A DNA stretch of 33,496 bases from Mesoaciditoga lauensis cd-1655R = DSM 25116 (lineage in GTDB: Bacteria; Thermotogota; Thermotogae; Mesoaciditogales; Mesoaciditogaceae). The stretch lies in assembly GCF_000745455.1 (NCBI RefSeq), contig NZ_JQJI01000026.1, forward strand, positions 1-33,496. The letters run 5' to 3'. Shown piece by piece: positions 178-33,176 of the stretch (positions are counted from its first letter, which is position 1; each line of letters begins with the position of its first letter). Both the position numbers and the translations under genes were made by a program. Under the pieces are notes generated by a model, which was not told the DNA's origin, did not search any database, and worked only from the letters and a program-made list of their open reading frames with translations.

Positions 178-351
178 ACAGATTCCTCCTTTTCATAAAC
201 CCGTTAGACGTCCGATCTTTTGAGGTCATTATTCTGAATCATGTTTGTGGAGGAAGCTAAATCCGAGACACAAGCTTACAGGCTTAAAAGATGTTCTAGC
301 TTTCTGCAGCAAACTTGATTCAGGCTTAAACCTACAATTATATTTTACACG
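178..351 (-). ncRNA. IS110 left-end non-coding region, candidate bridge RNA
   Basis: This stretch of about 174 nt separates the recombinase start from the point (352) where sequence matching repeat family A begins. IS110 elements carry a structured bridge RNA in this position; about 177 nt is the size known for IS621. A TATAAT box lies at 337-342 on the minus strand, just inside the element. That fits the known pattern in which the -10 is in the left end and the -35 is supplied by the right end in the circular form. A hand fold gives a stem AAGCTA/TAGCTT enclosing an internal loop with GAACATCTTTT on its left side, and an upper stem AAGC/GCTT. CATCTT also occurs in the flanking target. The position is strong evidence; the fold and guide assignment are tentative. 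Confidence 0.5.
337..342 (-). promoter_or_regulatory. -10 box for the IS110 non-coding RNA / recombinase
   Basis: TATAAT read on the minus strand, about 10 bp inside the element's left junction at 351/352. No good -35 is visible in the flanking repeat, consistent with a promoter completed only when the element ends are joined. This reading is inferred from family knowledge. Confidence 0.4.
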
Positions 352-433
352 GTAAGATGGGAAAAAGAGCGAATCCGTTCTGACAGGACTTCGAAGAAAT
401 TGCCTTTCGTAATGTTCACGCACAACATGAGTT
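352..433 (-). repeat. Repeat family A, copy A1 (left arm only, interrupted by the IS110 element)
   Basis: The reverse complement matches the left arm of the family A element at 6819-6902 nearly base for base: the terminal AACTCATGTTGTGCGTGAAC, then a CGAAG block, then CAGAACGGATTCGCTC and CATCTTAC. Identity stops abruptly after CATCTTAC, where the IS110 left end begins. The missing core and right arm should lie beyond the other end of the insertion, outside the window. From 434 to 514 nothing recognisable is seen before the next gene. Confidence 0.8.
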
Positions 434-514
434 GAGAATCTTTTAATTAAAATGAAAACTGGGTAAAAGAAAGCTATCCAAGTCTAAGAGAAAAAAACGA
501 GGAACAGGATTTTG

Positions 515-3918: not shown

Positions 3919-3970
3919 AATTTGTTTCTGAAATCATTTTTATGTAAGAAGTCTGCCCCAACTTGCGGGG

Positions 3971-4000
3971 GTGTCAATAAAGCTGGTGTCAATAAAGCTG
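3971..4000 (+). repeat. 15-bp exact tandem duplication
   Basis: GTGTCAATAAAGCTG occurs twice with no spacer (3971-3985, 3986-4000), ending 13 bp before the first possible fdhD start codon. It could be simple slippage, or it could move the promoter relative to the gene. Confidence 0.9.
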
Positions 4001-4013
4001 ACGAAAATTTTAT

Positions 4014-4736
4014 ATGTGCGAAGTGATTAAAGTGATGAGAAAAACGGAAATTGTAAGGATAGATGAAAAAGGATTCAGAGAGATGGAAGACGTTGTTATC
4101 GAAGAAAAGATGATCGAAATACTCTTTAATGAAAATGACGTTGGTACGATTTCGTGCACGCCAAAAGAACTTAAATATCTGGCTGTTGGATACCTTTACT
4201 GTAAGGGACTCATAAGCGACGCGAATGTGGATATTAAGCTGTTTTCATCAAAGATAAAAGCGAAATCAAACGATTCTAAGAAAATTGGGTTAAACACAAA
4301 ACGAGAATGCAATGCGAACTGTGTGGATATAAAAACGATATCCACAAGCATGGCAGACTTACTTGGTTCTTCAGAAATTTTTTTAGAAACTGGGGGATGC
4401 CACATAGCCGGCGTTTTTGATTTGAAAGAAAGGAAATACGCTTACATTTGTGAAGATGTTTCGCGTCACAGCGCTGTTGAGAAGTGCATTGGCTTTTTGG
4501 TTTCTCATCCAAACAAAATAGAAATACCCGCCCTTTTTTTAACGGGGCGGGTGAATTTTGAAATCGTTCAAAAATGTGCCAAAATAGGCATTCGAATGAT
4601 CGTAACCAAAGCAGCCGTTACGGCTGGAGCAATTGAAGAATCGAAAAAACGTCGCATAACTCTTATTGGCTTTGCCCGTCAGGATAGGGCAAATGTTTAC
4701 TCTTGCTTCGAGAGGATTGAGACTTCCAAATCTTAG
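4014..4736 (+). CDS. fdhD: FdhD-family protein (sulfur carrier for formate dehydrogenase maturation)
   Basis: 240 aa, slightly short for FdhD (about 260-280). FdhD passes sulfur from a cysteine desulfurase to the Mo/W-bis-MGD cofactor of formate dehydrogenase. Recognisable blocks: CTPKELKYLAVGYLYCKGLI (48-67), TGGCH (126-130), EDVSRHSAVEKCIG (the usual RHNAxDK), LTGRVNFEIVQKCAKIGI, and GFARQDRANVYS near the end. The conserved CxxC sulfur-transfer motif is replaced by CNANC (C99, C103), a CxxxC spacing. No formate dehydrogenase gene is in the window. The start is uncertain: neither ATG at 4014 nor ATG at 4035 has a strong ribosome site. It could serve another molybdenum or tungsten enzyme. Confidence 0.82.
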   Translation: MCEVIKVMRKTEIVRIDEKGFREMEDVVIEEKMIEILFNENDVGTISCTPKELKYLAVGYLYCKGLISDANVDIKLFSSKIKAKSNDSKKIGLNTKRECNANCVDIKTISTSMADLLGSSEIFLETGGCHIAGVFDLKERKYAYICEDVSRHSAVEKCIGFLVSHPNKIEIPALFLTGRVNFEIVQKCAKIGIRMIVTKAAVTAGAIEESKKRRITLIGFARQDRANVYSCFERIETSKS

Positions 4737-4737
4737 A

Positions 4738-5009
4738 AACTCCTGTTGTGCGTGAACATTACGAAAGACAATTTCTTCGAAGTCCTGTCAGAACGGATTC
4801 GCTCCTTTTTTCCATCTTTTAGTCCAAAATATGAGGCACGCTCAGACACTCGTCCATGAGTGCTTCGCTTTCTCGGCACGTCCTGCGCCTTTCAACCTCA
4901 TATTTGTGAATTTTCAGATGGGAAGCTCATATGTTCTGACAAGTACTTCGAGGGTGAGATTTAATCCCTTTTCGAAATACTTTATAACATTAACGCACAA
5001 TGTGAGTTA
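4738..5009 (+). repeat. Repeat family A, copy A2 (full length)
   Basis: A complete 272-bp element. Outer ends are an imperfect inverted repeat (CTGTTGTGCGTGAAC against the reverse of the AACGCACAATGTGAGTT end). Inside are a second pair (CGAAGTCCTGTCAGAAC against GTTCTGACAAGTACTTCG) and a core whose arms include CAAAATATGAGG and CCTCATATTTG, enclosing hairpins with ACACTC/GAGTG. It starts 1 bp after the fdhD stop, and its right end contains the stop codon of the convergent gene, so it makes up the whole intergenic region. No protein coding is evident. Confidence 0.88.
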
Positions 5010-5546
5010 GAAATTTCCTTTTTTCGCGATTGAACCCAGCATTATAAGTTCAAATCCATCGAAAAGCAAACTTATGCCAACGATCAATCCAACCCAAAAT
5101 ATGGAACTGAAAGGCCATCCCATTATCATCCAAATTCCCAAGAATATGGACAACGTACCGTTTAAAATGGCAAGCAAGGCACTCAATTTCGAACCAGCCA
5201 TATCGAATGCGAAAGTGAAATTTGAAAAGGCATCGATCAACAGGTAGGCTGAAAACATAATACCCAGTGCCGCAATGCCAACTCCAGGGAAAATGAGCAT
5301 AAGCAAACCAGTTATAAAAAGCACAACGGATTTGAGCCAGGCACCATGAGATTTTTTGTAACTTTTAAAAGTGGCGTACGCTGTGAAAATGGAACTTGTA
5401 ACGAGAACGCTACCAAAGAAAACTGCCGCACTTAAACTCATTATTGGGGGGATTAAAATCCCAAGAGTTCCAACTATTACCATCAATATTCCAGCAACTA
5501 TTGAATGTTTTGAGAATTTCTGTAAGACTTCTTTTTCGAAAATCAT
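5007..5546 (-). CDS. DUF308/HdeD-family membrane protein
   Basis: 179 aa with about six hydrophobic segments arranged as paired helices (VAGILMVIVGTLGILIPPI, ALGIMFSAYLLIDAF, FLGIWMIMGWPFSSIFWVG and others), matching the HdeD/DUF308 family of small integral membrane proteins. HdeD is linked to acid resistance in enterobacteria; elsewhere the role is unknown. The ATG overlaps the arsC stop as ATGA and has GGAGGGATTGTC in front, so it is translated with arsC. Its TAA stop is supplied by the outer end of repeat copy A2. Confidence 0.85.
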   Translation of the reverse strand: MIFEKEVLQKFSKHSIVAGILMVIVGTLGILIPPIMSLSAAVFFGSVLVTSSIFTAYATFKSYKKSHGAWLKSVVLFITGLLMLIFPGVGIAALGIMFSAYLLIDAFSNFTFAFDMAGSKLSALLAILNGTLSIFLGIWMIMGWPFSSIFWVGLIVGISLLFDGFELIMLGSIAKKGNF

Positions 5547-6001
5547 GACAATCCCTCCTTTTCTACCTGAAATTCGGCATTTTCTTCACTTTCCTTTACG
5601 AAATTTTCTTCTATCCATTTGGTTATTTCATCTCTAACACGCCTGAAGGCATCCATTTTTTCTTTGTCTGAACCCACCACTTGTGCTGGATCTTCAAAAT
5701 TGTGGTGTATATGAACCTTCCCCGGAAAGAAAGGACACGTTTCGTTTGCATGATCACATACTGTGATGACGTAATCGAATATTTTTCCTTTGAATTCTTC
5801 TATGCTCTTTGAGCGGTGATTTGAAATGTCTATACCTATTTCTTCCATTGCCTTAATGGCGTATGGGTTGACGTTGGATGCAATGGTTCCAGCGCTTGCA
5901 ACTTCGTATTTGTCAGAATATCTGCTTCTCAAAAAGCCTTCTGCCATCTGAGATCTGGCGGAATTATGAGTACATATAAACAGAACCTTTTTCTTGTTCA
6001 T
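5543..6001 (-). CDS. arsC: Arsenate reductase, thioredoxin-coupled type
   Basis: 152 aa of the low-molecular-weight phosphatase fold. The P-loop is C10-THNSA-R16, and the two further redox cysteines of the pI258-type enzyme are present as C82 and C89 in VCDHANETCPFFPG. This matches the C10/C82/C89 triad that passes a disulfide to thioredoxin after reducing arsenate to arsenite. SAGT and the FEDPA block also fit the family. The start at 6001 follows AAAGGAG by 5 nt; an upstream in-frame ATG at 6034 lacks a ribosome site. No arsenite pump or ArsR gene is adjacent; the partner gene is the DUF308 membrane protein. Confidence 0.93.
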   Translation of the reverse strand: MNKKKVLFICTHNSARSQMAEGFLRSRYSDKYEVASAGTIASNVNPYAIKAMEEIGIDISNHRSKSIEEFKGKIFDYVITVCDHANETCPFFPGKVHIHHNFEDPAQVVGSDKEKMDAFRRVRDEITKWIEENFVKESEENAEFQVEKEGLS

Positions 6002-6056
6002 CTCTACTCCTTTCATCTTTAAACCATCTTTCAAAGTAGATCATAGCATACATATG

Positions 6057-6062
6057 CTATAA
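6057..6062 (+). promoter_or_regulatory. -10 box (TATAAT) for the riboswitch-cobO transcript
   Basis: TATAAT lies a few bases before the first paired elements of the cobalamin riboswitch, the right place for a transcript that begins with the aptamer. The -35 is not clear. Confidence 0.45.
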
Positions 6063-6065
6063 TTT

Positions 6066-6250
6066 CCCAGTCTACGAGGAACTCTGGTGAAAATCCAGGG
6101 CGGGCCCGCCACCGTGACCGGCTACGAAACTCATAACAGAGCCACTGGTGAAAACTGGGAAGGCATGAGGAGTAGGACAAACCGGAAGCCGGGAAACTCA
6201 TGACGCCACGCCTTCGTGGAGAGAGGCTGGTGAAAACCATTCTGCACTTT
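6066..6250 (+). promoter_or_regulatory. Cobalamin (adenosylcobalamin) riboswitch
   Basis: Conserved pieces of the B12 aptamer appear in order: GGAACTCTGGTGAAAATCC, then GGGCCCGCCACCGTGA (the CCCGCxACUGU block), GCCACTG...CTGGGAAGGC (P6), and the B12-box region GGAAGCCGGGAAAC. The last part, GGCTGGTGAAAACC, could close the element. The gene 50 nt downstream makes adenosylcobalamin, so feedback control by its product is expected. TGCCTCTT at about 6252 could pair with the AATGAGG ribosome site near 6286, suggesting translational control; this pairing is inferred by eye. Confidence 0.88.
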
Positions 6251-6300
6251 TTGCCTCTTTTCCATGATCGCCAAAAAATATTAAATGAGGTGATCTTCAA

Positions 6301-6813
6301 ATGGAAAAAGGATACGTTCAAGTTTACACTGGAAATGGAAAAGGAAAAACCACTGCTGCCATAGGGCTTAGCACGAGAGCCGCTGGGGCAGGATTGAAAG
6401 TTTCTTTCATTCAGTTTATGAAAGGTCAGTACACGAGCGAATTGGAAAGTTTTAAAAAGCTGGGAATAGAATTCTACCAGGGCGGAAGGCCAGAGTTCAT
6501 AATTGGTAAAGCGAAAAAGGAAGATATAGAGGCGGCAGAAAAAACTCTTGAATTGGCGAAAGAAAAGGCCACTAGTGGAAAATACGATGTGGTGGTGTTG
6601 GACGAAGTTAACGTTGCCATTTATCTAGGTCTTGTAAGCGAAGAAGACATCCTTAAACTCATAGAAGAAAAATCAGATGGAACCGAGCTTGTATTAACCG
6701 GAAGATATGCCACCCAAAAGATCATGGATAAAGCCGATTTAGTCACAGAAATGCGAGAAATAAAACATTATTTCAACGCTGGTGTGCAGGAAAGAGTTGG
6801 AATAGAGCGCTAA
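6301..6813 (+). CDS. cobO: Corrinoid adenosyltransferase, CobA/CobO type
   Basis: 170 aa, typical for cob(I)yrinic acid a,c-diamide adenosyltransferase, which moves the adenosyl group of ATP onto reduced corrinoid. The P-loop TGNGKGKTT is at 10-18, followed by VVLDEVNVAIYLGLV (Walker B-like) and the C-terminal LTGRYA...ADLVTEMREIKHYF...GVQERVGIER block of the family. Start: GAGGTGATC about 6 nt before the ATG. It stands alone with no other cobalamin genes nearby, so it may serve salvage of imported corrinoids. Controlled by the riboswitch just upstream. Its stop is 5 bp from repeat copy A3. Confidence 0.95.
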   Translation: MEKGYVQVYTGNGKGKTTAAIGLSTRAAGAGLKVSFIQFMKGQYTSELESFKKLGIEFYQGGRPEFIIGKAKKEDIEAAEKTLELAKEKATSGKYDVVVLDEVNVAIYLGLVSEEDILKLIEEKSDGTELVLTGRYATQKIMDKADLVTEMREIKHYFNAGVQERVGIER

Positions 6814-6818
6814 TTCTT

Positions 6819-7087
6819 AACTCATGTTGTGAGTGAACATTACGAAAGGCAATTTTTTCGAAGTCCTGCCAGAACGGATTCGCTCTTTTTTCCATCTTAC
6901 GATTCAAAATATGAGGCACGCTCAGACACTCGTCCGTGAGTGCTTCGCTTTCTCGGCACGTCCTGTGCCTCTCAACCTCATATTTTGAATCCTCCGCCGG
7001 AGAGCTCATATGTTCTGACAAGTACTTCGAGAGTGAAGTTTAATCCCTTTTTGAAATGCTTTGTAGCATTGGCACACAATATGAGCT
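6819..7087 (+). repeat. Repeat family A, copy A3 (full length, best-preserved)
   Basis: A 269-bp element with the same nested inverted repeats as A2: outer ends AACTCATGTTGTG and CACACAATATGAG, middle pair CGAAGTCCTGCCAGAAC / GTTCTGACAAGTACTTCG, and a core with perfect arms ATTCAAAATATGAGG / CCTCATATTTTGAAT around GAGGCAC/GTGCCTC and ACACTC/GAGTG hairpins. It starts 5 bp after the cobO stop and ends 1 bp before the stop of the convergent HD-GYP gene, so it is the entire intergenic region. Confidence 0.88.
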
Positions 7088-7088
7088 C

Positions 7089-9146
7089 TTAAGCCATTTT
7101 GCTTTCTTTTTGCATTTTTAAAAAGACTTCAACCACCGCGGGATCGAATTGCTTTCCCGCGTTTTTTTCGATTTCTTCCAGCGCCATTTCTTCACTCAAC
7201 GCTTTTCTGTACGGTCTATCGCTTGTCATGGCATCAAACGTATCACACACTGCCATTATTCTCGATTCTAACGGTATTTCTTCCCCTTTTAAACCGTCTG
7301 GATATCCCTTACCATCCCATCTTTCATGATGATGCCTTACGATCTTAGAAATGTTTTTCAACTGAGCTCCTTCTTCGATCAACTCAGCACCGATTATCGG
7401 GTGCTTTTTTATCTCGTTGTACTCCTCAGATGTGAGTTTTCCATTTTTGTTCAAAATTTCCAATGGAACGAAGATCTTTCCCACATCATGAAGCAATCCG
7501 GCTTGATGAATTTTTCTTTGAGCTTCTTCATCCATTCCCATCATTTTTGCTATGTTTCTCGAACACTCTGCCACACGCTCGGAATGGCCCTTGGTGTAGA
7601 CGTTGTACTTTTCAAGGGCTTTAACGAGTACTAGTGTAAGTCTCTCTTGAAGATCCCGCTGAAACCTCATGTATTTTCTCGACACGTAAAATGCCGTGGC
7701 TATTTTCGAGAAACTACTCAAAATTTCTACGTCATCCTGTGAAAAGGCGTATTCACTTCCCTTTGGAATGTCGAGGGACATGTATCCTAAAGTTTCATTC
7801 AAAAATTTCAACGGTGCGACCAACGATTCTTTTATGGGTTTTGTGGCTTTTTTCACCACTTCAAGTGCTTTTGAAGGAGCTTGTTCTTCATCTTCCTTCA
7901 AGATATCTTTTACGATCTGCACTTTGTCGAATCTGGCGAGTTCAAAGTCCACTTTTGGATCCTTTAAAATTTTCTCATCGTGTCCACGACATGCGACTAT
8001 TTTCCATTTTTTCTCATCAAAAATCCAGATGCTTCCATATTTAGCAACCGGGATCATTTCCAGAGCCCTGTTAAGCATTTGTTCGAGAAATTCTTCTCCC
8101 TTTATCTTTATCATGTCAAGCTGGGAAAGAGAAACTACCATCGCTCGAAATCTTTTACTGAGCTTTTCAAGGTCGGAGTAAGCGTTTTCCAATTCTTCAT
8201 TTATAGCCCTTATCTCCTCATTTGAAGCTGTAAGCTCTTCAATGGTTTCGCTTAATTCTTCATTTTTTCTTTCAAGCTCACTTGCTTCTTTTTTTACAAG
8301 TTTCCTCAAGATGATCACGTTGGCAGCCAACACCACAAAAACAAGAATACCGACGCCAAAAACGTAAAAAACCCATTTCGGGATGAAAGGCCTTGCGGAA
8401 GGGACATTTAAGTATTTAGAAATCGACTCGTTGAGAACGGAATTGTCGTTCTCTTTCATTTGCTTGATGTACCTGTCCACAACCGGTGCTATGATCTTTG
8501 CAACGTGGCTTTGTTTAGAAAAAGCAGCTTTTTCCTCAATAAGATAGAAAATCATTGATGTGCTCTGTAGTCTGTATTTTGAAGCGTTTTCAACGCCAAA
8601 AAATCTGTTTACAACGCCGGCGTCTATTGTTTTATCTTTAACAGCTTTGAAAATGTCGGGGTAGCTGTTAAATTCGACGAATTTGGTCTTAACATTGAGG
8701 TGCTCTAAAAAATATTTTATTCCCAGTGGCCCTCCATAGAAGATATCCGATTTTAAAACGCCGACGCGCTTGCCGTTCAAATCAAAAAAAGAGTCAATGG
8801 AACTTCCTTTATGTTTGTACACTTGAGCCCAATTTGACAAAAAAAATTCGTTGGTGAAATAGCAAAACGATTTTCTTTCCTTCGTTTCAGCTATGCCAAG
8901 AAGCATATCGATCTTACCGCTTTTCAGATCCGGCAAGAGCTTGGAAAAAGACTCGTAAACATATTCAACTTTCCAATTTTCCTTTTGCGCTATGAAATTC
9001 ATAACATTCACAAGTATGCCCTGAGCGCTTCCATTTTTATAGAAGGAAAGAGGTGGATTATCGTAAATGCCAACTTTGACGGTTAGAGAGAAGGAAAAAG
9101 CAAAAAAGGAAACCAACAGCACAAAAAATAGAAGCGTCTTTCTCAT
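7089..9146 (-). CDS. Periplasmic solute-binding sensor with GAF and HD-GYP output
   Basis: 685 aa. Signal peptide 1-20; a family-3 solute-binding (PBPb) domain at about 21-245 (VGIYDNPPLSFYKNG, LPDLKSGKIDMLLG, LNGKRVGVLKSD); one membrane helix at about 257-281; a coiled coil at 284-335; a GAF domain at about 345-490; HD-GYP at about 505-680. The HD pair is at 553-554 (LLHDVGK), the second metal cluster is HHHERWDGKGYPDG (605-618) with GYP at 614-616, and CDTFDAM follows, so c-di-GMP phosphodiesterase activity is expected. The domain order suggests that binding of an extracellular amino-acid-like ligand controls c-di-GMP breakdown. Start at 9146 follows AGAGAGGTGGGG; the longer upstream frame has no such site. 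Divergent from the chemoreceptor gene. Confidence 0.93.
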   Translation of the reverse strand: MRKTLLFFVLLVSFFAFSFSLTVKVGIYDNPPLSFYKNGSAQGILVNVMNFIAQKENWKVEYVYESFSKLLPDLKSGKIDMLLGIAETKERKSFCYFTNEFFLSNWAQVYKHKGSSIDSFFDLNGKRVGVLKSDIFYGGPLGIKYFLEHLNVKTKFVEFNSYPDIFKAVKDKTIDAGVVNRFFGVENASKYRLQSTSMIFYLIEEKAAFSKQSHVAKIIAPVVDRYIKQMKENDNSVLNESISKYLNVPSARPFIPKWVFYVFGVGILVFVVLAANVIILRKLVKKEASELERKNEELSETIEELTASNEEIRAINEELENAYSDLEKLSKRFRAMVVSLSQLDMIKIKGEEFLEQMLNRALEMIPVAKYGSIWIFDEKKWKIVACRGHDEKILKDPKVDFELARFDKVQIVKDILKEDEEQAPSKALEVVKKATKPIKESLVAPLKFLNETLGYMSLDIPKGSEYAFSQDDVEILSSFSKIATAFYVSRKYMRFQRDLQERLTLVLVKALEKYNVYTKGHSERVAECSRNIAKMMGMDEEAQRKIHQAGLLHDVGKIFVPLEILNKNGKLTSEEYNEIKKHPIIGAELIEEGAQLKNISKIVRHHHERWDGKGYPDGLKGEEIPLESRIMAVCDTFDAMTSDRPYRKALSEEMALEEIEKNAGKQFDPAVVEVFLKMQKESKMA

Positions 9147-12312: not shown

Positions 12313-12669
12313 CTCACATTGTGCACCAATATTACAGAGCATTTCAAAAGGGGATTAAATCTCACCCTCGAAGTACTTGTCAGAACATATGAGCTCGCCA
12401 TCTGAAGATTCAAAATATGAGGTTGAGAGGCACAGGACGTGCCGAGAAAGCGAAGCACTCACGGATGAGTGTCTGAGCGTGCCTCATATTTTGGATTGTA
12501 AGATGGAAAAAAGAGCGAATTCGTTCTGACAGGACTTCGAAAAAATTGCCTTGACCGCTTGCAAAGCGGGTTTTAAATCAAAAAGTGTCGTCAAATGTGG
12601 CTCACATGTTCTCGTAGAGAAATTAATGCTTCTTGTAGTACCTTTCGTAATGTTCACGCACAACATGAG
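12313..12669 (-). repeat. Repeat family A, copy A4 (full length with long left arm)
   Basis: About 357 bp, inverted relative to A2 and A3. All parts are present: outer ends CTCACATTGTGC and CGCACAACATGAG, the middle pair, and the core with CAAAATATGAGG / CCTCATATTTTG arms. A 91-bp segment at 12551-12641 is added in the left arm between GCAAT and ACGAAAG of the usual sequence; a matching segment is found in A7. It occupies most of the 570-bp gap between the divergent MFS and amidohydrolase genes. The remaining 100 bp (12670-12769) should hold the amidohydrolase promoter, but no clear boxes were identified. Confidence 0.85.
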
Positions 12670-12769: not shown

Positions 12770-13876
12770 GTGGAAATAGCTAAAAGAGTTATAGAACACA
12801 GACGATGGCTTCATCAACATCCAGAGCTTGGTTTTGAAGAATATGAAACTTCGGACTACATCGCGGAACACCTAAAAAAGGCCGGCATACCTTTTAAAAG
12901 ACTTAAAACTGGTATCTTAGCCGATTTAAACGTGGGAGCCTCGCAAACTTTTGCGTTGCGTGCGGACATAGACGCCTTACCCATTCAAGAAGTTGGGGGA
13001 AGAGAATACGGTTCGAAGAATCCAGGTAAGATGCACGCTTGTGGTCACGATGCACATGCAGCCATGCTTTTAACAGCCGCTGAGTACATGGCACAGAATG
13101 CTCCGAAAAAGAACGTGAGATTCATTTTTCAGCCCGCTGAAGAAGGAAGAGGTGGAGGGGAGTTCATGGCAAACAACGGTGCCGTGGATGGAGTTGATAT
13201 GGTTTTTGGAATACATGTTTGGGCAAAAACGAGAAGCGGAGTTTTTGAAGTGAAAGAAGGTCCTCTCATGGCAAGCGCTTCTGAGTTTGAAATAGACATC
13301 CATGGAAAGGGTGGACATGCCGCATCTCCACACCTCAACGTAAACCCAATAGCAATTGGTGCCACGTTAACCAATGAGTTGTACAAAATTGGAATGCTTT
13401 ATGTGGATCCGATTCAAAACTCTCTTGTGAACGTTACCTCTTTCAATTCCGGTAACACCTTTAACGTCGTTCCCGAAGATGCCAAATTGTTGGGAACCAT
13501 AAGGACTTTTTCAGATGAAGCGAGAGAAGTCATTTTTCGAAAGATCAAAGAGCTTGAATCCATAGTTAAAGCCCTTGGCGGAGAAATGACAGCGGATTTA
13601 AAATCAGTAACTTATCCCGTCGTTAACTCAAAAGAGGCTGTGGTTGTGGCAAGAGAAGCTTTGAAGAGACTTGAATTTGAAACTGTTGAAGCTACCCCTA
13701 CAATGGGAGGGGAAGACTTTTCCTTTTACCTCAAAAAAGTGCCGGGAGCTTTTCTGTTCTTAGGGGTTAGAAATGAAAAGAAAGGCATAACTTCTCCACA
13801 TCATAGTCCCACTTTTGATGTTGATGAAGAAGTTTTGGAAAAAGGGGTAAGGTTCTTTATAGAACTTTGCAATTAA
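12770..13876 (+). CDS. M20-family amidohydrolase (N-acyl-amino acid/hippurate hydrolase-like)
   Basis: 368 aa zinc amidohydrolase of peptidase family M20D, which removes acyl groups from N-acyl amino acids or related amides. Motifs: RRWLHQHPELGFEE near the N-terminus, ADIDALP (66-72), the metal site MHACGHDAHAA with C91 and H93, EE at 124-125 in QPAEEGRGGG, H149 in GIHVWA, a dimerisation lid starting HGKGGHAASPH, GGEDFSFY, and HHSPTFDVDEE near the end. GTG start with GAGGGGGGCG in front. N-acetyl-diaminopimelate deacetylase is an alternative in this family; no lysine genes are adjacent to support it. Single gene. Confidence 0.93.
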   Translation: MEIAKRVIEHRRWLHQHPELGFEEYETSDYIAEHLKKAGIPFKRLKTGILADLNVGASQTFALRADIDALPIQEVGGREYGSKNPGKMHACGHDAHAAMLLTAAEYMAQNAPKKNVRFIFQPAEEGRGGGEFMANNGAVDGVDMVFGIHVWAKTRSGVFEVKEGPLMASASEFEIDIHGKGGHAASPHLNVNPIAIGATLTNELYKIGMLYVDPIQNSLVNVTSFNSGNTFNVVPEDAKLLGTIRTFSDEAREVIFRKIKELESIVKALGGEMTADLKSVTYPVVNSKEAVVVAREALKRLEFETVEATPTMGGEDFSFYLKKVPGAFLFLGVRNEKKGITSPHHSPTFDVDEEVLEKGVRFFIELCN

Positions 13877-13950
13877 AAAATTCAGTTCTCTGCGAATTTG
13901 TGTGGATAACATATTTCGAATAATAGCATCCTTTGACATTTTACTACCAC

Positions 13951-14156
13951 TTTCCAAGCGGTCAAGGTGATTTTTTTCGAAGTCCTGTCAGAACGGATTC
14001 GCTCTTTTACCCATCTTACGACTCAAAAAACGAGGCACGCTCAGACACTCATCCATGAGTGCTTCGCTTTCTCAACACATCCACGTGTTTCCCAACCTCG
14101 TTTTTATGAGTCTTCAGATGGAAAGCTCATATGTTCTGACAAGTACTTCGAGGGTA
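13951..14156 (+). repeat. Repeat family A, copy A5 (left end degraded)
   Basis: It begins inside the long-arm segment (TTTCCAAGCGGTCAAGG), then has the middle pair CGAAGTCCTGTCAGAAC / GTTCTGACAAGTACTTCG and a core of the AAAAAACGAGG / CCTCGTTTTTATGAG subtype. The outer terminal repeats are missing. Part of the 1031-bp gene-free gap at 13877-14908, which otherwise holds a hairpin (14267-14297), repeat B1 and a core-less A remnant. Confidence 0.8.
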
Positions 14157-14266
14157 CTTTTTTTACTTGATAACAAGGTATTTTAGGATGATTTTGTTCA
14201 GAACTGCAACAACAGACAGAATAGAGAATCGCATGTTTTACCCACACTAAACTAATGAGAACCAAA

Positions 14267-14297
14267 AATTCTCCCTTTGTAAATCAGAGGGAGAATT
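14267..14297 (+). terminator. Hairpin, possible terminator
   Basis: AATTCTCCCTTTG and CAGAGGGAGAATT form a 13-bp stem with one wobble pair and a 5-nt loop, followed by GATTTAATTT. The T-tract is weak and the nearest upstream gene ends almost 400 bp away, so it may instead be the edge of a mobile repeat. Confidence 0.35.
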
Positions 14298-14310: not shown

Positions 14311-14748
14311 CTCAAATTATGCAAGTTTGAGTATGAGAACCCTCAAACCTTTGAATATAGCTTAATCCTTCGGAATTATTCCCCCCTTCGTCGGCTTTGC
14401 CGACACTTCCCCCGCAAGCGGGGGAAGACTTCTTATATAAAATGACTTTGACGCCATTTCCCTCACAAATGGGGACAGACTTTTCAATTTGGAAAGTAGC
14501 TCTCTTGATTCTCCCATGTAAAATATAGTTGTTAAATGAAACACTCAGATAATGGAGAAGCTCGTCAGTCTCCTAGGCATAAAGCCTGTTGGGAGGTTTG
14601 GGTCTCTCCTCCCAAAACTGGGAGGAGTGGCAACGTAGTTGACGAGGAGGGTTCATCTTTCCTTTTGGTTTCAATGCCAACGTCTTTCCAATTGATTTCT
14701 TAATCTTCATGCACAACCTCATTCAATTTGAGTTGCATAAATTGAATT
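14311..14748 (+). repeat. Repeat family B, copy B1 (expanded)
   Basis: It begins CTCAAATTATGCAAG and AATATAGCTTAA, then GTCGGCTTTGCCGAC and a perfect GC-rich hairpin at 14406-14427 (CTTCCCCCGC / GCGGGGGAAG), and ends with TTCAATGCCAACGTCTTTCC, AATTGATTTCTTAATCTTC and TTCAATTTGAGTTGCATAAA. About 200 bp is inserted between the hairpin and the tail relative to B4. It includes a second hairpin CTCCTCCCA-AAAC-TGGGAGGAG near 14613-14634 with TTGACGAGGAGGG after it. This looks like stacked REP-type palindromes. Confidence 0.75.
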
Positions 14749-14749
14749 A

Positions 14750-14905
14750 CTAATCTTGTGCATGAACGTTACTAAGAGTATCAAATTTAGGATAACAGAA
14801 AAGTCAAAGACTCTAATCTAAGAAAGCTCATATGTTCTGACAGGGTACTTCGATAGTGAAATTTGATCCCTTTTTGATCAGTTTTGTCGCATCAACTCAT
14901 GCGAT
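14750..14905 (+). repeat. Repeat family A remnant without core (A5b)
   Basis: TTGTGCATGAACGTTACTAAG resembles the A left end, followed after about 50 bp by AAGCTCATATGTTCTGACA, GGTACTTCGATAGTGAAATT and TGATCCCTTTTTG, the A right arm. The hairpin core is missing. It also repeats 34 bp already present at the right end of A5, so the region is a broken and rejoined tandem. Confidence 0.6.
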
Positions 14906-20457: not shown

Positions 20458-21151
20458 GAAACTCACAGTGTACAGGAAAGTAACAAATTTAGTTTTGCGG
20501 AAAAAAGCGATCATTGAAAATATTTATCGAAACACATTCCGGCACGAATTCACTCTTTTATCCATCTTACGACTCAAAAAACGAGGCACGCTCAGACACT
20601 CATCCATGAGTGCTTCGCTTTTTCAACACATCCGTGTGTTTTCCAACCTCGTTTTTATGAGTCTCCAGATGGAGAGTTCATAAGTGCCGGCAAGTGTTTC
20701 GATAAAGGGAGAGGGAGAGGGAGAAGAAAAAAGATCTGTTATTTTACACCTTGTATGGCGTCTTCATATGTTTTGACGAAAACTTCAAAAAGGGAGAAGA
20801 GAAAGGCGAAGAAAAGCATGATTAATTCGAAACACTCGCCAACACGAATTCACTCTTTTATCCATCTTACGACTCAAAAAACGAGGCACGCTCAGACACT
20901 CATCCATGAGTGCTTCGCTTTTTCAACACGTCCGTGTGTTTTCCAACCTCGTTTTATGAGTCTCCAGATGGTGAGTTCATAGGTGCTGGCACGTGTTTCG
21001 AAAGAAAAAGGGAGAAACATATGTTTTGACAGAAATTTCAAAAAAGGAGAGAAAGGCAAAGAAAAGTGTTGGATGATCGCTGTAAATAGCCATGAATGTT
21101 GGTTTATAGATGATATGTTAATTACTTAGCACTTAGCACAGCGTGAGTTAG
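20458..21151 (+). repeat. Compound family A element: two compact cores between distant terminal repeats
   Basis: Two cores of the compact subtype lie about 300 bp apart: 20526-20704 and 20826-21002. Each is bounded by TCGAAACAC and GTGTTTCGA, with inner AAAAAACGAGG / CCTCGTTTT arms and an ACACTC/GAGTG hairpin. Each core is followed by purine-rich DNA and a CATATGTTTTGAC...AAAGGC tail, making a tandem duplication. Weak terminal repeats are seen at both ends: AACTCACAGTGTAC (about 20460) and CACAGCGTGAGTTAG (about 21138). This fills most of the divergent gap between the rseC-like and RNase HI genes. No coding sequence or other RNA gene is seen at 20295-21180. Confidence 0.75.
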
Positions 21152-26154: not shown

Positions 26155-26161
26155 TTCAGCT

Positions 26162-26345
26162 TGTGCATCAAGTTTAAGAAATCAATTGGACAAAGTCATC
26201 GGTATTGAAAGTCAAAATGGGAAATGAAGCCGCTGTGTTATTTGCCCCTATTTATGAGGAAAGTCAACAGAGTCATTTCTATGTAATATAGTCTTCCCCC
26301 CACTCGTGGGGGAAGTGTCGACGGAGTCGACGAAGGGGGAATCCC
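26162..26345 (-). repeat. Repeat family B, copy B2 (degraded)
   Basis: On the minus strand the order matches B4: hairpin CTTCCCCC...GGGGGAAG near 26292-26312, GTCGACGGAGTCGAC, and the AAGAAATCAATTGGAC / CGGTATTGAAA tail near 26176-26205. It fills the 245-bp gap between fliD and the racemase gene, and its GC-rich hairpin could end fliD transcription. Confidence 0.7.
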
Positions 26346-27319: not shown

Positions 27320-27580
27320 TATGGCAAGTTTGAATATAGCTTAATTCTTTGAAATTATTTCCCCCTTTGTCGGCTTCGCCGACACTTCCCCCACAAATGG
27401 GGGCAGACTTCTTATATAAAAATGGCTTCGCCGACGCTTCCCCCGCTTGCGGGGACAGAATATCCATAAAATGACGAGGAGGGTTCATCTTTCCTTTTGA
27501 TTTCAATGCCAACAGCTTTCCAATTGATTTCTTAATCTTCACCCATCCCTCATTCAATTTGAGTTGCATAAAGCGAACAA
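27320..27580 (+). repeat. Repeat family B, copy B3
   Basis: AATATAGCTTAATTC, GTCGGCTTCGCCGAC with CTTCCCCCAC, a second GGCTTCGCCGACGCTTCCCC unit, then GACGAGGAGGGTTCATC and the TTCAATGCCAACAGCTTTCC / GAGTTGCATAAA tail. The doubled hairpin unit indicates amplification of the palindromic part. With A7 it makes up the gap at 27099-27605. Confidence 0.75.
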
Positions 27581-27605
27581 CGTACATTCAGCATACCTGC
27601 GGATG

Positions 27606-32937: not shown

Positions 32938-33176
32938 CTAAACTCTCAATTTATGCAACTCAGATTGAATGAGGTTGTGTGTGAAGATTAAGAAATCAAT
33001 TGGAAAGTTGTCGGCATTGAAACCCAAAGGAAAGATGAACCCTCCTTGTCATTTTATGGATATTCTGCCCCCGCAAGCGGGGGAAGTGGTGGCGGAGCCG
33101 ACATAGGGGGGAGAATAATTTCAAATGATTTAAGCTATATTCAAAGGTTTGATGCTCAAATTATGCAAGTCGAGTT
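32938..33176 (-). repeat. Repeat family B, copy B4 (most regular)
   Basis: Read on the minus strand: ACTTGCATAATTTGAGCATC, AATATAGCTTAAATC, CGGCTCCGCC, hairpin CTTCCCCCGC/GCGGGGGC, ATCCATAAAATGACAAGGAG, TTCAATGCCGACAACTTTCC, and a TTCAATCTGAGTTGCATAAA end. About 239 bp. It lies in the 500-bp gap between the ferredoxin gene and the putative transposase; 32780-32935 is AT-rich and should hold the ferredoxin promoter. Confidence 0.75.

Follow-up and report, generated by a model that had tools for sequence, protein, structure and literature searches.

This stretch of Mesoaciditoga lauensis DNA (contig NZ_JQJI01000026.1; 33,496 nucleotides, hereafter the window; contig C22 of the 65 contigs of the 2.17-Mb genome, G000) raises the question why copies of a repeat, family A, fit so closely between the stop codons of convergent genes. 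A sequence-only reading of the window had offered two answers: the element targets gene ends or terminators, or it terminates transcription in both directions or stabilises mRNA 3' ends and has replaced the original spacer. Our analysis leads to a different answer. Family A, here called T1, is a miniature inverted-repeat transposable element (MITE), which lacks a transposase gene, has terminal inverted repeats (TIRs) and an inner hairpin, and produces a 7-bp target-site duplication (TSD). Very probably, T1 is a MITE with a TTANTAA target that is near-neutral at stop codons, and no regulatory role is needed to account for its position.

The fit is best followed at two short-form copies on the forward strand, A2 and A3. 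A2 (267 bp, 4740..5006) lies between two copies of TTAGAAA: the left one (4733..4739) holds the fdhD stop codon TAG (4734-4736) and the right one (5007..5013) the stop codon of the DUF308 gene (TTA on the forward strand, 5007-5009). The described fit of A2 to its gap is thus confirmed, with ends refined by a few bases. The DUF308 stop codon, however, is part of a TSD copy and comes from the target, not from the element. For A3 (265 bp, 6821..7085) the fit was likewise confirmed and its ends refined. The left TSD, TTCTTAA (6814..6820), starts directly behind the cobO stop codon (6811-6813), so that the gap on this side is exactly the 7-bp TSD, and the right TSD, CTCTTAA (7086..7092), with one mismatch at the outermost base, contains the HD-GYP stop codon (TTA, 7089-7091). 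Within A3, positions 6857..7030 (forward strand) form the inner hairpin module, TTCGAAG..CTTCGA, with a length of about 174 nt. In-silico excision of the element together with one TSD copy left the ends of FdhD, DUF308, CobO and HD-GYP unchanged. In the resulting empty sites, the stop codons of fdhD and the DUF308 gene overlap (A2) and those of cobO and the HD-GYP gene are 3 bp apart (A3). As all four proteins remain intact, nothing was replaced or truncated at A2 and A3, which contradicts the idea of a replaced spacer: the flanks plus one TSD copy restore the gene ends.

T1 transposes with a 7-bp duplication at TTANTAA-like sites. This was established on a context set of stretches around 100 of the 190 genomic places of the 22-base core motif together with other loci, which yielded 125 core copies (up to 4 mismatches). 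Both T1 ends were present in 56 of them, and 20 further stretches brought the collection to 63 end pairs, 57 with core. An exact 7-mer direct repeat, counted with the first terminal base treated as target, flanks 18 of these 57 copies, compared with 0.38 expected after shuffling of the right flanks. Five more copies carry one mismatch (23/57 with at most one) and the remaining 34/57 two to six. The outermost base of the TIR equals the target base in 20/21 and 19/21 cases at the two ends, including the non-consensus bases G, C and A. As this base follows the target and not the family, the true element reads CTCA..TGAG; our first reading of a 5-bp TSD was dropped in favour of 7 bp because the outer bases track the target. 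The target consensus TTANTAA is AT-rich and palindromic (symmetrised, T at position 1 in 37/46 and A at position 7 in 37/46, with TTA..TAA between). The mobility of the element is borne out. Its target preference also makes stop codons somewhat likely as sites, with the TSD overlapping a stop codon in 4/20 copies that have a near-perfect TSD and called genes on both sides, and to that extent the proposed link to gene ends stands, while targeting as such is not supported.

The core motif occurs 190 times in the genome (up to 3 mismatches), 95 times per strand, and its reversed sequence, used as a control, not once. Among ten genomes of the taxonomic family, it was detected in five: 190 copies in M. 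lauensis itself, 10 in G005, which belongs to the same genus, and 5, 9 and 5 in three others. It was absent from G008 and from all four genomes representing another genus. T1 has TIRs of about 27 bp, found as pairs in the 57 copies, and exists as a short form of 265-267 bp and a long form of about 364 bp. It is thus short, bounded by TIRs, free of a transposase gene and flanked by a TSD of fixed length (7 bp), and it has termini in common with autonomous elements, namely the right end of an insertion sequence (IS) in G005 and both ends of an IS remnant in G009.

The available part of a review of prokaryotic MITEs (PMC10969869) describes elements that resemble T1 in being shorter than 500 bp and intergenic, with TIRs, TSDs eroded by age, a stem-loop and size variants due to internal deletion. 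AT-richness, called typical there and hence treated here as non-defining, is not found in T1 (GC 0.43 and 0.45 for the element, 0.39 for the window): its A+T content is no higher than that of the genome. A 7-bp TTANTAA target is not mentioned in that part of the review, which does report that QMITE2 of Coxiella resides mainly in 3' untranslated regions. The pneumococcal repeats BOX, RUP and SPRITE, as far as described in the part of the study available (PMC3049150), are likewise high-copy intergenic repeats that occur between convergent genes, and 36 BOX copies provide a gene with its stop codon without strong evidence of truncation. They differ from T1 in sequence and host, convergent gaps are clearly enriched there and only weakly here, and SPRITE resembles a terminator, whereas T1 does not. 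In our sample, T1 also lacks the features of REP/BIME repeats, being 265-364 bp long with TIRs and a TSD (RAYT itself was not searched for). REP/BIME repeats are palindromic units of 20-40 bp mobilised by a RAYT (Y1) transposase. T1 is a new family within a known class of bacterial repeats and not a dedicated gene-end signal. None of the titles and abstract openings found deals with repeats of Mesoaciditoga, and the present analysis provides an abundant element family together with a candidate parent transposase for this deep-branching thermophile.

The parent of T1 is likely an IS4-like IS with predicted DDE and YREK motifs. The G005 element mentioned above (L238) encodes a putative transposase with YREK, one of its ends reads CTCACCCTGTGCGTGAACATTACGAAA, and its right end carries the left terminal sequence of the MITE; the remnant in G009 (L236) matches the T1 termini at both ends. 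A near-complete IS in G005 (L221), whose transposase of 376 aa shows both D77D111E and YREK (Y..R...E......K), is a relative of the IS with the end CTCACGTTGTGCGTGGATGTTAAG, pieces of which lie at five contig ends of G000. Of the two features that define the IS4 family, YREK and the DDE spacing, L221 shows both and L238 the YREK. The NCBIfam models for IS4 and IS701 scored below their cut-offs; the best IS4 model, IS4_4, gave 111.6 and 101.2 bits, where 250 are required. For the IS4 subgroup ISPepr1, the accessible part of the family description (PMC2266710) gives a 7-8 bp duplication, a length of 1500-1600 bp and preferential 5'-CT ends, and for IS4 a spacing range of D(60-110)D(100-150)E. 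The candidate parents agree with the IS4 family in the YREK of their transposases and in the L221 spacers of 77 and 111. The MITE resembles ISPepr1 in its 7-bp TSD, AT-rich target and 5'-CT ends, and a further IS, L222, is about 1587 bp long. In contrast, the CTCA termini depart from the listed YT-AA-YTT and agree with it only partly. At positions 1449-1475 of L221 (G005 C59), the IS lies directly beside a T1-type terminal repeat (..GTTACAA/ACTCACGTTG), which suggests that this IS inserted into an older T1 copy.

We propose that an IS4-like transposase moves T1 in trans. The TTA and TAA of the target double as stop codons on either strand, which would create the apparent fit to convergent gaps, and the 7-bp duplication would put a full stop codon on each side of the insert. 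With the stop included in the duplication, insertions of this kind would be near-neutral and would be retained; those in genes or near starts would be purged by selection. Such a route offers a testable reason why bacterial repeats can seem to end genes, namely a stop codon within the duplicated target, and it makes the distance from repeat to stop codon unsafe evidence for terminator function. A more far-reaching version holds that palindromic target and 7-bp TSD form a stop-sparing safe-haven strategy, in which the element prefers stop-like sites, rebuilds both stops and colonises overlapping convergent ends free of cost; this we regard as unlikely.

The gene context of the copies bears directly on whether T1 actively seeks out the 3' ends of genes or transcription terminators. 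No called gene contains any of the 125 cores; 12 of the 125 were dropped from the context counts as a neighbour was missing. Of the 55 complete copies, which have both ends and a gene on either side, 27 lie in tandem, 19 in divergent and 9 in convergent gaps. The seven core copies of the window are also divided (4 convergent, 3 divergent, two of the latter in one gap), so filling of convergent gaps is not a general rule. Across all types, 106 gaps are occupied, of which 54 are tandem, 31 divergent and 21 convergent. Gaps lacking a core served as controls, either the 161 longer than 0 bp, with 130 tandem, 17 convergent and 14 divergent ones, or the 85 of at least 30 bp (57 tandem, 14 convergent, 14 divergent). 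Divergent gaps are over-represented among the occupied ones (31/106 vs 14/161, p 2e-5), and weighted by base pairs the divergent T1 copies are as numerous as expected (19 vs 16.9). The convergent share speaks for targeting when compared with all control gaps above 0 bp (21/106 vs 17/161, Fisher p 0.048), but this excess disappears against controls of at least 30 bp (21/106 vs 14/85, p 0.58; T1 alone, 9/55, p 1.0). Convergent gaps occupied by an element are no shorter than their controls (Mann-Whitney p 0.91), and 3/9 of them, compared with 1/17 controls, measure 8 bp or less (Fisher p 0.10).

Distances to stop codons were compared with a target-weighted null, for which a matrix was built from 19 sites, excluding the four near-stop sites, and tested on the 55 copies. 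We observed 13 copies vs 6.8 expected at no more than 20 bp from a stop codon (p 0.02), three copies fit both stops, and the stop side is the nearer one in 19/27 tandem pairs (p 0.052), all of which would agree with targeting. On the other hand, the excess within 9 bp is not significant (8 vs 4.2, p 0.07; an unweighted test gave 8 vs 2.7 within 8 bp, p 0.005), 19 of the 55 copies lie between divergent genes, and starts are depleted (1 vs 5.8 within 20 bp, p 0.03; 8 vs 15.0 within 50 bp, p 0.03), a depletion that yields the same bias without any targeting. Active targeting is therefore very unlikely in our view, and we read the pattern as mild stop-side survival. The sequence-only reading had named an outcome that would speak against it, with most copies lying far from gene ends or inside genes and promoters; the observed 19/55 copies between divergent genes and only 13/55 at 20 bp or less from a stop come close to this.

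If the inner hairpin terminated transcription in both directions or stabilised mRNA 3' ends, and were kept for this function at convergent ends, this would explain why it folds strongly on both strands (z -5.6 and -6.4) and why another Mesoaciditoga genome still has the A2 insertion at the orthologous position. However, a scan of the element for a GC-rich stem followed by a U-run found only a weak 6-bp stem with CTTCGCTTTC in each copy, the majority of copies lie away from convergent ends, many of them upstream of genes, and the orthologous A2 copy has lost the entire hairpin. Among 65 hairpin modules found, 45 could be aligned over 48 pairs, and 6/48 pairs show two-sided changes, by eye mostly in the same few related copies. 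Broken pairs were mostly A-C and G-U pairs no commoner (by eye), and hence neither RNA strand is favoured. Taken together, we consider such a function highly improbable.

Comparison with relatives supports the view of T1 as a mobile element. The nearest named relative by CobO is L031, a Mesoaciditoga metagenome-assembled genome (88% identity), whose fdhD/DUF308 site is likewise filled, with a copy that measures about 100 bp and lacks the inner hairpin. This copy raised the idea that the hairpin had entered a short T1 element as an insertion of its own, but the inner deletion points vary among other short copies (by eye), which favours deletion, and we do not prefer this reading. In G005, the site C6:42348 is filled with the left part of the element deleted, whereas the element is absent at the positions of C10:14104 and C10:19166, at the latter of which the ortholog ends with the equivalent codon. 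As orthologous sites are found filled, internally deleted or empty, new copies evidently appear, are retained from one species to another and degenerate through internal deletion. Two short T1 copies of G005 are flanked by the repeats TAATTTA and AATTTTA (by eye); around C6:47517, the DNA comparison with G005 was uninformative as synteny is lost.

The close fit of A3 might alternatively stem from a recombination event in which two copies of the element brought cobO and the HD-GYP gene together. The adjacency of these genes is indeed not common to L031, where an ABC-transporter-like frame and no element come after cobO, or to G005, where the HD-GYP end has no element and faces another convergent neighbour, a nagA-like gene. 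Yet the A3 flanks agree at 6/7 TSD bases, whereas a recombinant would have unrelated flanks, which makes this origin quite unlikely.

Several points weigh against T1 as a near-neutral MITE moved by an IS4-like parent. In 32/57 copies, at least 3/7 bases differ between the TSD positions, implying that the insertion signature is eroded or the ends are misplaced there. Copies with both stops within 9 bp (3/55) exceed the target-weighted null (0.08 expected, p 7e-5); two of the three, however, had given rise to the test in the first place, and we read the double-sided fits as partly due to how the finding was chosen. The gene caller was home-made and its starts are approximate. On the side of the parent, no complete IS of the L238 type was found in G000, only remnants, the pieces at five of its contig ends belong to another IS, a relative of L221, with termini similar but not identical, and L222, the sole IS with both ends, shows no matching repeat from which a parental TSD could be read.

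The other T1 copies of the window are less regular. A7 (forward strand, 27105 to about 27318) starts 6 bp past the racemase stop codon, as described before, but its right end is missing and the gap is not filled; another repeat family starts near 27329. A long form on the reverse strand (12313..12669) lies between divergent MFS (reverse) and M20 peptidase (forward) genes and has no matching TSD, and A1 (reverse strand, approximately 332..438) is an end fragment without the core motif. Rfam was also searched for a catalogued RNA as the identity of the element; over the window it matched a cobalamin riboswitch alone, the aptamer of which lies directly upstream of cobO (6076-6199, RF00174, 71.1 bits), so that T1 does not correspond to any catalogued RNA.

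The hairpin core recurs in type C elements with the termini AGTTCTC..GAGAACC, found in the window (13884..14263, forward strand) and on G000 contigs C2, C3, C12, C13 and C18; one hairpin module is thus common to MITEs of two TIR/TSD classes. The window copy is flanked by the 8-bp TSD AAAAATTC (13876-13883 and 14264-14271), the left copy of which overlaps the last base of the M20 stop codon, and the 8-bp TSD is exact in 4/10 copies with both ends recognisable (by eye). Type C hairpins were considered as part of transposase genes and rejected, as the upstream genes are ordinary chromosomal genes. Type B core copies, with the arms TCGAAACACTTGCCAGCAC..GTGCTGGCAAGTGTTTCGA, occur in the window (20544-21002) and elsewhere in G000 (C2:18907/19199, C5:27387/27674, C20:7210/7502), often as tandem pairs about 290-330 bp apart, linked by another repeat containing AACTCTGTTATTTCGCATCTTG. 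A further family of CCCCC-rich hairpins (..GTCGGCTTTGCCGACACTTCCCCC..), with an end resembling AGGTTGTGCATGAAGATTAAG, occupies positions 3930-3971, 14343-14776, 26158-26341, 27329-27594 and 32946-33152. At L217, the end of G000 contig C29, a type B hairpin sits between ACTCACGTTGTGC-type ends beside an IS piece, showing that different repeats are nested in each other.

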